From a virus, in IMG/VR virus record IMGVR_UViG_3300025872_000360, positions 1 through 21,538 of that record: a stretch of DNA of 21,538 nucleotides. The stretch is one strand, 5' to 3'. Position 1 is the stretch's first letter, and each line of letters starts with the position of its first letter. Below the pieces are notes generated by a model, which did not search any database, was not told where the DNA came from, and saw nothing but the letters and a program-made list of their open reading frames with translations. Positions 5,598 to 19,993 of the stretch are shown piece after piece. The position numbers were made by a program, and so were the translations under genes.

Positions 5598-6008
5598 ATG
5601 ACCTACATCATCCATCCCACCGCTACCGGCGTCGCGATCACCACTCCCACCGGAGAGGTGTCGATCGAGCAGGTCGCCCAGCAGGTCGCGCCCGACGACA
5701 TCTACGCCATCGTCACCGCTGACCAGATCCCCTCCGACCGCACCTTCCGCGCTGCGTGGGTCTACTCCCCCGATGGCATCGAGATCGACCTAAATCGCGC
5801 CAAGGCCATTGGCCATGATCTGCGCCGTGCTAACCGCAATGCAGAGTTTGCACCACACGACAAGGTGATCAGTCTGCAGATTCCTGGTGTCCAGCGTGAT
5901 GCCGCCGAAGCCGCTCGCGCTGCTATTCGCGCCCGGTACGTCATCATCGAATCTGCCATTGATGCAGCCACTACCACGGATGAGATCAAGGAGGCGCTTA
6001 ATGCCTAA
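5598..6008 (+). CDS. Small phage protein, possibly fibre/tail associated
   Basis: This 136-residue protein starts three bases after the fibre stop. The N-terminal half reads like a short beta-rich segment (YIIHPTATGVAITTPTGEV, then DDIYAIVTADQIPSDRTFRAAW). The C-terminal half is helical and charged (RAKAIGHDLRRANRNAEFAP, then AAIRARYVIIESAIDAATT). The DRTFRxAW motif followed by a K/R-A-K-A helix recalls small proteins encoded next to tail fibres in many phages. These are often called tail fibre assembly or hypothetical, with no proven role. There is no signal peptide or membrane segment. It overlaps the next small gene by 8 bases at its 3' end. Coding status is well supported by context; the function is unknown. 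Confidence 0.75.
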   Translation: MTYIIHPTATGVAITTPTGEVSIEQVAQQVAPDDIYAIVTADQIPSDRTFRAAWVYSPDGIEIDLNRAKAIGHDLRRANRNAEFAPHDKVISLQIPGVQRDAAEAARAAIRARYVIIESAIDAATTTDEIKEALNA

Positions 6009-6123
6009 GTATCTTTTCTTGATCGACGCTTTGCCTATGCCGCTGACCGCCGCCGAGCGCTTGAAAGCCGCAGGTTTTGACCTTGATGAGTTGCGAGCGC
6101 TGCTTCTGGGAGGTGCAGTCTGA
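6001..6123 (+). CDS. 40-residue small protein
   Basis: A short gene of 40 codons. It is preceded by a strong ribosome binding site, AAGGAGG, at about 5988-5994. Its ATG overlaps the preceding stop by 8 nt and its TGA overlaps the next ATG (TGATG). The product has a hydrophobic N-terminus (KYLFLIDALPMPL) and a short amphipathic helix (AAERLKAAGFDLDELRALLL). It could be a membrane-binding or helical adaptor peptide, but no family is recognised. The overlaps on both sides and the Shine-Dalgarno sequence are the main evidence that it is real. Confidence 0.6.
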   Translation: MPKYLFLIDALPMPLTAAERLKAAGFDLDELRALLLGGAV

Positions 6124-6260
6124 TGGCAGTCCGCAGCAAAACCGGCACTGCCGCCGTCCAGCACCAGCCCGGCAAGCCGAAAACTACACGGGATGGCTAC
6201 GGCAAAAACTCTCGCCCTTGGCGAAGAGGCAAAAAACCTCTTCGGGGTCAAGGGCGATAG
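6123..6260 (+). CDS. Small basic Gly/Arg/Lys-rich protein, interrupted gene with substituted 3' end
   Basis: This 45-residue, highly basic protein starts with MAVRSKTGTAA and ends with KKPLRGQGR. Its ATG overlaps the stop of the preceding 40-codon gene, and GGGAGGTG lies just upstream. From 6184 onward it is coded antiparallel to the C-terminal tail of a leftward HNH endonuclease gene. A second, diverged copy of its C-terminal half, including the ending RKKLRGQGR, lies beyond that gene at 6775-6873. The simplest reading is that the endonuclease inserted into this gene and its end supplies a replacement C-terminus. I recall small basic proteins with RGQG endings from cyanophages; their role is unknown (nucleic-acid or virion binding is a guess). 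Confidence 0.6.
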   Translation: MAVRSKTGTAAVQHQPGKPKTTRDGYGKNSRPWRRGKKPLRGQGR

Positions 6261-6771
6261 GGGCAAATTTTCCGTAAGTGAATTTTTCAGCAACTTCTCT
6301 AGCGGCAATCGCCGCTTCTTTGGTCGCGTATGATCCAAGATGAAGCTGCCTGCCCTTGACAACTACATAAGCCTTCCAGTATTCGATGCCTCCAACTACG
6401 GCGTACAGTACGCCTGATTGGCCAGACGTATTGTTTCTGCGTAGTCTTCTGCAGTTCCGCAAATTCTCTGTTGCAGTAGCCATTCGTAAATTACTGGGAC
6501 AGTTGTTAGACGGGTTTCCGTCTATATGATCTATAAAGTAATTGCCAGGATTTTCCTTGGTGGCAATGTAGTAAGCAATTCTATGTGCAAGCATTTTATT
6601 ATTTTGTTTCCTAATCTCGATGTATCCGTCGGGTCGCAAATATCCAGCGCGCTTGCCTATGAGTTCCTTGAAATAGCTAGTACGCCAAACAAGGTCTGGT
6701 CCGTCAATGGCGAACCACGTCTCTAATTCGTGCAAAGGGGGCAGTGGTTTGATACCGCGAGTGGTGGCCAT
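6184..6771 (-). CDS. HNH homing endonuclease with AP2 DNA-binding domain
   Basis: This 195-residue protein is read against the surrounding late genes. It starts at ATG 6771 (MATTRGIKPL). The frame stays open upstream to 7020, but that part is the shadow of another gene. The HNH core is NKMLAHRIAYYIATKEN, then FIDHIDGNPSNNCPSNLRMA and TATENLRN (about residues 58-112), an HNH_3-type zinc-independent nuclease. An AP2 domain follows (about 117-170: SGVLYAVVGG, WKAYVVVKGRQLHLGSYATK, EAAIAAREVAEKF). After YGKFAPI, where such proteins usually end, it has about 23 extra residues antiparallel to the basic small gene. It is A+T-richer than its neighbours. It should cut an empty allele and spread by gene conversion. 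Function is confident; the insertion model is inferred. Confidence 0.9.
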   Translation of the reverse strand: MATTRGIKPLPPLHELETWFAIDGPDLVWRTSYFKELIGKRAGYLRPDGYIEIRKQNNKMLAHRIAYYIATKENPGNYFIDHIDGNPSNNCPSNLRMATATENLRNCRRLRRNNTSGQSGVLYAVVGGIEYWKAYVVVKGRQLHLGSYATKEAAIAAREVAEKFTYGKFAPIALDPEEVFCLFAKGESFCRSHPV

Positions 6772-6774
6772 GAA

Positions 6775-6873
6775 ACACGTCAAAATCAGGGTCAGCTTAG
6801 CGCAGGCCAAGGGCAGGGTCGCCAGAGCAAGCCCAATCACAACCGCAAGAAGCTGCGCGGCCAAGGTCGCTAA
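6775..6873 (+). pseudogene. Displaced 3' end of the basic small gene
   Basis: This stretch reads TRQNQGQLSAGQGQGRQ, then SKPNHNRKKLRGQGR and a TAA. It has no start codon of its own in a sensible place: the frame closes at 6724-6726 and the intervening codons are the reverse of the endonuclease start. It aligns with the end of the 6123-6260 gene (pattern G-x-G-x-x-S-[KR]-P ... KK-x-LRGQGR) but with many silent differences. ACACG at 6775-6779 matches ACACG at 6186-6190 at the other side of the endonuclease gene. It is probably the original C-terminus of the interrupted gene, now untranslated. An alternative is a second paralogous gene that lost its start. Confidence 0.5.
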
Positions 6874-6882
6874 GCTGGAGCC

Positions 6883-7221
6883 ATGGAAATCTCCCCTGGC
6901 AAGTACGACATCACGCTCCAGCGCCGGGCGGACTACAGCGTCACGCTGCAGTTCAAAGACAGCACCGACACTCCTATCAACCTCACCGGCTGGACTGCCG
7001 CCGCTCAGGTCTGGAATCAAAACCGCACCACTAAGTACGCTGACTTCACCGTCACCTACACCAACCGCAGCACCGGCACCATTGAAATCGCACTTAGCGA
7101 TACCGACACCGCCACCTTCCCCAACGAAGCCTATTACGACGTACTACTTACCAACCCAAGCGGCCTGAAAGAGTATTACCTCGAAGGCATCATCTACGTC
7201 AGCGAGGGGTACACGGCATGA
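6883..7221 (+). CDS. Small beta-rich structural protein upstream of the collagen-like fibre
   Basis: This 112-residue protein has GGAG shortly before its ATG and an ATGA overlap with the following fibre gene. It reads as one beta-sandwich domain: [19 protein letters not shown], then [31 protein letters not shown] and [11 protein letters not shown], ending in [15 protein letters not shown]. Short proteins with this NLTGWT...AQVR-like pattern are frequent beside phage fibre and baseplate genes and sometimes form the N-terminal part of receptor-binding proteins. It lacks Cys and membrane segments. It may be an adaptor between tail and fibre. That role is inferred from position and fold impression only. 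Confidence 0.75.
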
Positions 7222-11116: not shown

Positions 11117-11295
11117 GGCAGTACGTCCTTGAGATCGAGTACACAATCGTCGTCGAGAGCGACGCAGAAGACCCTGTTGAAGTCAGTGATGACTTTGCAG
11201 CGCGTCTGACCGAACTAGCTCCCACCAATGACCACATCCTGGGCCTGTCGGTCCAGGTACTCCCTATCCCAGAACTGCGTGGACCATGCGATTGA
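11113..11295 (+). CDS. Small acidic protein
   Basis: A 60-residue acidic protein beginning RQYVLEIEYTIVVESDAEDP and continuing through DDFAARLTELAPTNDHILGL with a final beta strand LSVQVLPIPE. AGGTGG at 11102-11107 lies at good spacing before TTG 11113, whose last bases overlap the endolysin stop; a GTG at 11104 is the alternative start. The alternation of beta strands and one helix gives a plausible compact fold, but no family is recognised. It could be a small regulator of lysis or unrelated. Coding confidence is moderate. Confidence 0.55.
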   Translation: MRQYVLEIEYTIVVESDAEDPVEVSDDFAARLTELAPTNDHILGLSVQVLPIPELRGPCD

Positions 11296-11575
11296 TGGCA
11301 CCAATCTCGTTCCAAAGCGCAGCGCAAAGCAGCAGTTCCGTGAGCACATCTTCAACGCCTGGAACCACTGCTGTGCATACTGCAGCGCTCCTGCCGATAC
11401 CCTAGATCACGTAAAACCTAGGCATAAGGGAGGTAGTACGGTCACAAACAACCTAGTGCCCGCCTGCCAATCTTGCAACCGCAGTAAGGGAAGTGAATAC
11501 TGGCTTGATTGGTACATGCGCCAATCTACCTATAGCCACCTACGCATTAGTCGCATCCAGCAGTGGTTGGCCTAG
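11279..11575 (+). CDS. HNH endonuclease (zinc-type, CxxC...CxxC)
   Basis: A short HNH nuclease of about 98 residues. The core is visible: FREHIFNAWNHCCAYCSAPA, then DTLDHVKPRHKGGSTVTNN and LVPACQSCNRSKGS. Two CxxC pairs would hold zinc, and DHV plus the Asn and His of the H-N-H core form the metal site. The start is uncertain: GTG 11279 is chosen because the domain begins soon after, while ATG 11228 would overlap the preceding gene by 68 bases. It ends in an aromatic tail (YWLDWYMRQSTYSHLR) that I associate with HNH genes of Synechococcus phages. It is probably a free-standing homing endonuclease; a packaging-associated HNH role is less likely this far from the terminase. Confidence 0.85.
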   Translation: MDHAIDGTNLVPKRSAKQQFREHIFNAWNHCCAYCSAPADTLDHVKPRHKGGSTVTNNLVPACQSCNRSKGSEYWLDWYMRQSTYSHLRISRIQQWLA

Positions 11576-18760: not shown

Positions 18761-18975
18761 TTGTCTAGCTCCTTGATGAGTTTCTTAAGGGCCTTGAACT
18801 CGCCCCAGGTCAGGCGAATAGTTTGATCGGCGTGAGTGCTCAGGTGGGCATCAAAGCCTTCGCCGTTGCGCCACAGGCTGACCTCAATGAAGTCGTGTGG
18901 CTTGGCGAAGTGATCGAAATGGCGTAGCTCTGCGAATGCGGCATTGAGCTTGTAGGTTTTGATGTCACTGCTCAT
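18757..18975 (-). CDS. 72-residue small protein
   Basis: Starts at the ATG overlapping the end of the Ala/Trp-repeat gene (ATGA) and ends overlapping the GTG of paralogue B. It reads DIKTYKLNAAFAELRHFDHF, then DFIEVSLWRNGEGFDAHLST and TIRLTWGEFKALKKLIKELD: a beta hairpin followed by a charged C-terminal helix, resembling small phage proteins of unknown role with an IRLTWGEFKALKKLI ending. No Cys or membrane segment. Function unknown. Confidence 0.72.
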   Translation of the reverse strand: MSSDIKTYKLNAAFAELRHFDHFAKPHDFIEVSLWRNGEGFDAHLSTHADQTIRLTWGEFKALKKLIKELDK

Positions 18976-18988
18976 TGGTGGTTCTCCA
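18972..18988. repeat. 17-bp junction repeat, copy 1
   Basis: TCATTGGTGGTTCTCCA, identical to 19727-19743. Read leftward it codes the gene end ENHQ plus the ATGA stop/start overlap. Confidence 0.85.
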
Positions 18989-19730
18989 CAACAGGGGCTT
19001 CAGAGATAAGGCGAAGCAGCAGGTCGCGTTGGCGCCGGCGGGAACCAGCCCGAGTAGTAGTAGCAGCATTAGCAGCCCAAGCAGAAGCAGCATTAGCAGC
19101 CCAAGCAGCAGCACGGGCAGCATCAGCATCAGCAGCAGCAGCAGCAGCATTAGCTGCCCAAGCAGCAGCAGCACGGGCAGCATCAGCAGCAGCCCAAACA
19201 GCATTATCAGCAGCCCAAGCAGGAGCCCAAGCATCATCATCAGCAGTATCCCAAGCAGCAGCCCAAGCATCATCATCAGCCCGAGCAGCCGCATCCCGAG
19301 CAGCAGCAGCAGCAGTCCACTCCTGCCCACTGGCAAGTAGGTCCATTCCTGCAATCACCGGATCAATAACTGCTTGGATTTCAGCAAGTTGTTCAGGCAG
19401 ACTACGCAGCTCAGCAGCAAGGAACTGCCAGCTAACTTTGGTTAGATCCTTGCCGTCACAAGCGACAGCATCAGGTAATGCAGCAAAGAAAGCCTTGGCT
19501 TCATCAGCGGGCAGTGCCTCAAAAATGCCTTCAGCAATGCGCTGGAGAATTACAGGCAAACCATAAGTCACTTCGTTGATGGTTGGATCATCGCCTTTGG
19601 CAAGGCAGCCATTATAGCAACCATGCCTATTCTCTTCGTCCCAATAATCACCTTGAACGATAGAATCAGCAGCAACGTGTGTTGCGACTTCTTGGCGGAG
19701 TTTGTCAGTGTTCTTGGTGAGGATGGTCAT
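18972..19730 (-). CDS. Protein with Ala/Trp-rich repeat region
   Basis: A 252-residue protein. The N-terminal domain (1-138) is soluble: DYWDEENRHGCYNGCLAKGD, then YGLPVILQRIAEGIFEALPA, ACDGKDLTKVSWQFLAAEL and IDPVIAGMDLLASGQEW. Two Cys occur in GCYNGC, a pattern I recall from uncharacterised cyanobacterial and phage proteins. Residues 139-223 are an Ala-rich tract with regularly spaced Trp and Asp (DDDAWAAAWDTA-type 12-residue units), probably one long helix or a helical repeat with Trp on one face. A basic helix (RAGSRRRQRDLLLRLI) ends it. Start ATG 19730 overlaps the preceding stop. Could be a scaffold or membrane-surface protein; function unknown. Confidence 0.75.
   Translation of the reverse strand: MTILTKNTDKLRQEVATHVAADSIVQGDYWDEENRHGCYNGCLAKGDDPTINEVTYGLPVILQRIAEGIFEALPADEAKAFFAALPDAVACDGKDLTKVSWQFLAAELRSLPEQLAEIQAVIDPVIAGMDLLASGQEWTAAAAARDAAARADDDAWAAAWDTADDDAWAPAWAADNAVWAAADAARAAAAWAANAAAAAADADAARAAAWAANAASAWAANAATTTRAGSRRRQRDLLLRLISEAPVVENHQ
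19062..19316 (-). repeat. Ala/Trp-coding GCA/GCT-rich repeat tract
   Basis: The tract consists of GCN-rich triplets with periodic TGG. A 21-bp segment beginning AGCCCAAGCATCATCATCAG occurs at 19224 and again at 19260 (36-bp period, 12 residues), and GCAGCATTAGCAGCCCAAGC recurs at the other end. Such triplet-rich DNA is prone to slippage and unequal recombination, always in steps of whole codons. Confidence 0.85.
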
Positions 19731-19743
19731 TGGTGGTTCTCCA
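19727..19743. repeat. 17-bp junction repeat, copy 2
   Basis: Identical to 18972-18988; again spans ENHQ and the ATGA overlap, here between the 88-residue gene and the Ala/Trp gene. Confidence 0.85.
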
Positions 19744-19993
19744 GTTCGGTGGCGATGGCGAGGAGTTGCCGACGAGTTTCTTCTCGCTGGTATTTCGTTG
19801 CGTTCATGTGGTTCCAGTCTTCGATGCTCCAAGCCTTTAGCGGATCAATCTCAGCCTCTACGGGCACCACCTGATCTGCAGCAGCACGCAGGGCGGCGGC
19901 GATGGCAGCCTCAAGCCCTGGGCACTCGTTCGGCGCTACGCATGGCTCGGCAGCATCCAACACCGCCTGCGCGGCGGGGCTCAGCTCAGCCAT
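19727..19993 (-). CDS. 88-residue small protein
   Basis: Starts MAELSPAAQAVLDAAEPCVA at ATG 19993, overlapping the upstream stop by 8 nt, and ends ELENHQ with an ATGA overlap. The sequence is helical: GLEAAIAAALRAAADQVVPV, then AWSIEDWNHMNATKYQREET and RRQLLAIATELENHQ. The LSPAAQAVLDA...AIAAALRAAADQVVP pattern looks like a widespread small phage protein of unknown role, possibly an oligomeric helical bundle. The final segment resembles that of the Ala/Trp protein, with which it shares the 17-bp repeat. Confidence 0.72.
   Translation of the reverse strand: MAELSPAAQAVLDAAEPCVAPNECPGLEAAIAAALRAAADQVVPVEAEIDPLKAWSIEDWNHMNATKYQREETRRQLLAIATELENHQ

Follow-up and report, generated by a model that had tools for sequence, protein, structure and literature searches.

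Mobile ORFs that replace the C-termini of the genes they enter have been described from fungal mitochondria, in atp6 of Allomyces macrogynus and in atp6, atp9, cox2, and nad3 of Glomus sp. (PMC3630166). Allomyces atp6 was the first such case, the four hybrid genes of Glomus sp. are transcribed, the C-terminus that is brought in is functional, and the ORFs spread by horizontal transfer (PMC3630166). In phages, the ShiLan element is a hidden, out-of-frame HNH endonuclease in a methylase gene, inserted without known splicing (PMC11855218), and free-standing HNH-AP2 homing endonucleases are represented by phrog_99 and by the HNH/AP2 homing endonuclease genes of ICP1 (PMC10448857). A phage report of C-terminal replacement with antisense overlap was not found in the open-licence literature, where the mitochondrial cases and ShiLan come closest. 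The element analyzed here seems to be a clear example, from a phage, of a replacement gene end.

Like the fungal mobile ORFs, this element places an endonuclease ORF near the 3' end of a gene, provides a foreign C-terminus in frame, and displaces the native one, which persists as a duplicate downstream, past the endonuclease ORF. The fungal ORFs are mitochondrial, belong to the LAGLIDADG or GIY-YIG families, and in several instances are in phase with the host gene, whereas the present element is of HNH-AP2 type, resides in a phage on the strand opposite to its host gene, and has a replacement tail that overlaps the endonuclease frame. The fungal endonuclease ORFs, moreover, lie on the host-gene strand, and in the Glomus cases they are cotranscribed with the host gene, unlike the antisense endonuclease described here. 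Because of this orientation and the overlapping tail, we regard the element as one that would work like the fungal mobile ORFs and do not file it as a member of that group. With ShiLan it shares a phage HNH gene within a protein gene, an open host frame, and the overlap of two frames; in ShiLan, however, both frames are on the same strand, the host frame runs on through the insert, which becomes an internal loop, and there is neither a substitute C-terminus nor a displaced tail. The free-standing HNH-AP2 enzymes have the same domain order and family as the endonuclease, but the ones aligned here stop directly behind the AP2 domain and have no extension encoded antisense to another gene.

The window, by which we mean the whole stretch of DNA analyzed, is a 21.5-kb phage contig from IMG/VR; it is cyanophage-like and carries a lambda J-like tail tip gene, tail fibre genes, and a lysozyme. 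The host gene of the element (6123-6260, plus strand) is a conserved basic gene of 45 codons with the product MAVRSKTGTAAVQHQPGKPKTTRDGYGKNSRPWRRGKKPLRGQGR, assigned by family match to phrog_516, whose matches in the phage collection all come from Synechococcus phages and cyanophages. Across loci L011-L329, the phrog_516 gene has neighbours that differ between phages (LtfC-like, several small holin-like genes), and its tails are mainly of two types, 44 and 45 aa; it looks like a travelling gene. In L061, L065, L067, L069, and L071 the final part of the basic gene is in a shifted frame, an apparent natural frameshift (in L061 the shifted reading is GARSRPGDAGRNPLKAKD..., and the ...RRRGKKPLKGQGR ending lies in another frame). 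Promoter and terminator scans gave no usable signal. Elsewhere in the window, a second small HNH gene (PF01844/HNH_5; 11228-11575, plus strand) lies just after the lysozyme/peptidase gene, and an ORF at 18972-19832 (minus strand), which had no match when Pfam and PHROG were searched, has a long, repetitive C-terminal half rich in Ala, Trp, and Asp (WAAAWDTADDDAWAPAWAADNAVWAAADAARAAAAW...). A ThyX-type thymidylate synthase (PF02511; 14987-16714, minus strand) is split by an insert of roughly 300 aa, which starts after ...GHYG at CYSSDTEVLT and ends in ...VVSGN before CTEHPQ; it looks like an intein, and no Pfam intein match was obtained for it at 1e-3.

The endonuclease gene runs on the minus strand from an ATG at 6771 to its end at 6184, an alternative upstream TTG start also being listed, and the ORF listing agrees with the strands and coordinates that a preliminary description of the window had assigned to it and to the basic gene. 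Its product has an HNH nuclease domain (PF13392 HNH_3 in Pfam, E 7.8e-12) and matches phrog_99 with an E of 1e-42. A Pfam AP2 match did not reach the 1e-3 threshold. In the C-terminal part of the protein model, whose overall confidence is low (mean pLDDT 64), residues 121-166 form three strands and a helix, for which plant AP2 domains are the best PDB matches (Foldseek probability 1.00, E only 0.016), and the AP2 region aligns throughout with annotated HNH endonucleases. Model and alignment together indicate a C-terminal AP2 DNA-binding domain. A relative with a solved structure was sought by sequence and not found. The features of the locus are collected in the table.

Table. Features of the endonuclease-bearing locus, in window coordinates
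Feature	Position	Strand	Basis or remark
Host gene, native 5' part (first 20 codons; phrog_516 family)	6123..6182	+	Aligns to empty allele L016
Replacement 3' end of host gene, element-borne (TTRDGYGKNSRPWRRGKKPLRGQGR, then stop)	6183..6260	+	Absent from L016
HNH-AP2 homing-type endonuclease gene, 195 aa	6184..6771	-	HNH_3, phrog_99, AP2-like fold
Endonuclease C-terminal extension, residues 172-195	6187..6258	-	Antisense to replacement tail
Endonuclease upstream leader, right end of mobile element (AAACACGTCAAAATCAGGGTCAGCTTAGC)	6772..6801 (right limit approximate)		Alignment by eye
Displaced native 3' end of host gene, remnant (...QGQGRQSKPNHNRKKLRGQGR, then stop)	6802..6873 (start approximate)	+	L011 counterpart equals L016 tail
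LtfC-like tail fibre assembly gene, locus marker in empty and occupied relatives	6883..7221	+	PF23926, E 2.6e-8

Empty sites were searched for with the LtfC-like gene as anchor, and 80 loci were fetched. One empty allele, L016, has a single gene (...KPKLTRQGHGRHSRPSHNRKKLRGQGR, then stop) that crosses the insertion site uninterrupted and stops 9 nt upstream of the anchor gene. Its 5' part differs from that of the window by few changes, aligns with it as far as CCGAAA, and is joined directly to the native tail. Such an uninterrupted relative had been expected in the preliminary description, and the tail of L016 is letter for letter the remnant found in L011-L015, near-identical sister contigs of the window that carry the endonuclease. 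The displaced ending is therefore native, and the 25 codons in its former place are element-borne. Two claims of the preliminary description are thereby borne out: that a mobile endonuclease gene is inserted in the basic gene, and that a substitute C-terminus, absent from L016 and common to the lineages, comes with the element and is encoded antisense to the C-terminus of the endonuclease itself. The diverged second plus-strand ending (...NHNRKKLRGQGR, stop at 6873) is likewise present, although the native tail begins near 6802 and not at 6775 as had been proposed. The replacement tail contains DGYGKNSRPWRRGKK and the displaced tail contains NHNRKK; the duplication is not random, since a degenerate tail-peptide pattern had 0 matches in 100 shuffles. 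The remnant is of each phage's own tail type, being L016-type in L011 and of the ...KLIGQG type in L007, where it matches the KLIGQGR tails of empty relatives in the same context, e.g., L255. The L008 remnant reads TRQGNGTRSKPSHGRKKLRGQGR, then stop; that of L007 is shortened and contains a stop codon (TRQN-stop-GQKLIGQGS-stop), which argues that the old tail is dispensable. As aligned, these alleles show that the element is inserted in the gene, that its tail has replaced the native one, and that the native one has been moved downstream.

The mobile unit had been equated with the endonuclease ORF, but it extends about 30 bp beyond the start codon. The leader is recognisable in the window, L008, and L007 beside three different native sequences and was therefore assigned to the element, which thus spans approximately 6183-6801 and not the ORF alone; this right edge was placed by eye in an alignment of about 30 bp. 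There is a loose resemblance between the leader and the TRQGxGQ target codons, of which it may be an old copy. ACACG, previously noted at both edges, does occur at 6186-6190 and 6775-6779; since the left copy is not conserved (L007 reads ACTACGAAAG), however, the repeat is poor evidence for the edges, and at just 5 bp it was rejected as a target-site duplication.

Close relatives of the endonuclease in IMG/VR are confined to the window group, L008 (93% at the amino acid level), and L007 (75%); because there are only these three lineages, with shared ancestry between them, the counts given here are small and limited by that ancestry. All three sit in the basic gene, in different phage contexts: L008 and L007 adjoin different genes, and their flanks match the window or its sister contigs little or not at all. 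Endonuclease and tail DNA are 92-98% alike among the window, L002, and L008, and the flanks in the window and L008 are unrelated or weakly related. The presence of occupied and empty alleles at one site, with an element more alike than its flanks, is at the sequence level the pattern expected of homing, and recurrence in unrelated phage contexts is likewise apparent. In genome contigs, neither the tail pattern nor the endonuclease profile gave matches to chromosomal or prophage relatives.

The overlap between the replacement tail and the endonuclease had been interpreted as 77 bp coding on both strands. Under true dual coding, this stretch would be selected on both strands, the endonuclease would need its extension, and the overlap would have evolved because it silences the insertion. 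The frame is indeed open in every lineage, and also in the endonuclease-free L186 and L200, and some extension residues are invariant. The phase of the overlap is antagonistic, however, with host third codon positions corresponding to endonuclease second positions and host second positions to endonuclease third positions. Among four endonuclease sequences (window, L002, L007, and L008), variable sites at endonuclease positions 1/2/3 number 40/21/106 outside the overlap and 5/8/2 inside it (P = 3e-5). Between the window and L007, synonymous and nonsynonymous codon differences number 68 and 41 outside the overlap and 1 and 9 inside it (P = 0.002). Changes in the overlap thus fall at host third positions, and changes synonymous for the endonuclease are almost absent; in natural tails, changes at host positions 1/2/3 number 1746/1388/7810, counted over pairs of alleles that are not independent. 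The host reading alone is therefore visibly under selection, and partial conservation of the extension motif LDxEEVFxLF is attributable to host-gene constraint. An extension of approximately 23 residues is absent from all nine aligned phage relatives (163-176 aa), which end just after the AP2 domain and function without it as far as is known, and it was likewise absent when HNH-AP2 relatives at other sites were checked for it. In the model, residues 172-195 have a pLDDT below 50, and the same antisense phase is open by chance in 95 of 142 natural tails (67%; 81% of the RRxG type). Considering the substitution phase, the relatives, the low pLDDT, and the chance-open frames, the extension is probably an incidental, passive read-through into a captured host-gene end, although it may have a minor role in DNA binding. 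Dual coding is improbable and was rejected on the codon-position pattern.

If two tandem basic genes had existed first, with a free-standing endonuclease between them and nothing repaired, the window by itself would look much as it does, with two similar endings. Every related contig with the endonuclease has the second ending, however, against 0 of the endonuclease-free loci fetched (a set that includes many repeat fetches of one contig and some loci that stop near the gene); only one gene exists in L016, and in L007 the second ending is reduced to a broken pseudogene. Tandem basic genes lacking an endonuclease, which would have contradicted the preliminary description, were looked for among the fetched relatives and not found; for the loci sampled this reading is refuted, and we give it very little credence. 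Phage introns and inteins often contain HNH genes, and the element lies in a conserved codon stretch, as would suit a group I or II intron or an intein removed by splicing to restore the host gene. Against this, positions 5900-7200 have no Rfam match at E <= 1, the host frame stops at 6260, inside the insert, and the endonuclease is antisense; furthermore, a spliced gene would have no use for a replacement tail, and its downstream tail would be expected to stay intact, unlike that of L007. Splicing was accordingly discarded as a highly improbable explanation.

We consider it very likely that the locus holds a homing element with an antisense-fused, captured host-gene end, which formed a hybrid gene and displaced the native tail. 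In the proposed mechanism, the 3' end of the endonuclease gene would have been fused tail to tail, on opposite strands, with a 3' end captured from the host gene, giving an element of about 620 bp. In empty alleles of the basic gene, the endonuclease would cut close to the conserved TRQGxGQ codons, and break repair would copy the element into the cut allele. Because it is copied in at that point, the 5' part of the host gene would be joined to the element's own tail of 25 codons and stop, yielding a full-length hybrid gene, and the native tail would be pushed downstream and then decay. Since the fusion would have removed its own stop, the endonuclease frame would read through the tail antisense until a chance stop, which would add a tolerated extension of 23 residues. 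Our inferences are cleavage and homing, a functional hybrid protein, and the way in which tail and endonuclease first came together; the insertion would presumably be phenotypically silent.

Where the tail came from is a separate question, and either answer is compatible with the main mechanism. Nine contigs match a DNA pattern for the tail; the endonuclease is present in seven of them and missing from two, L186 and L200. The tail is thus common to all three endonuclease lineages and to these two phages, which may be tail donors or relics from recombination between two similar endings. Phages like L200 or L186 could have been the source, with the endonuclease landing just behind the stop codon and the pair then spreading, and this stands only slightly short of an even chance, the alternative being relics left after loss of the element. 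Both carry the element's tail without an endonuclease, L186 is at the base of the tail clade, and its tail turns to native-type sequence only from the last few codons on. Element tails and those of L186 and L200 form one clade, which excludes the natural tails (ultrafast bootstrap 98-100); the L200 tail, however, groups within the endonuclease-bearing tails, and in this tree of 78-bp tails a single endonuclease-bearing clade is not rejected by the AU test (P = 0.11). Codon choice in the tail is unusual within the gene family (ranks 1-6 when set against 142 natural tails); since this could reflect foreign origin as well as earlier constraint, it was not taken as proof.

Where neither an intron nor an intein houses it, a homing endonuclease gene usually has to lie between genes, and a replacement gene end would offer it another route to harmlessness. 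The case also shows how antisense overlap may arise as a by-product of capture, and it is a clean example in which substitution phase reveals the selected frame of two that overlap. At its compact size, the element is suited to laboratory tests. Synthetic homing drives use recoded rescue, and the element may mirror them. Tentatively, and with appreciable doubt, it could be a natural self-rescuing homing drive in phages, in which the tail would be a recoded rescue copy that restores carriers and makes them immune to the cutter, and loss of the endonuclease, through recombination of one ending with the other, would leave an immune, repaired hybrid gene, as perhaps in L186 and L200. If so, rescue sequence and endonuclease C-terminus would share the same DNA on opposite strands.
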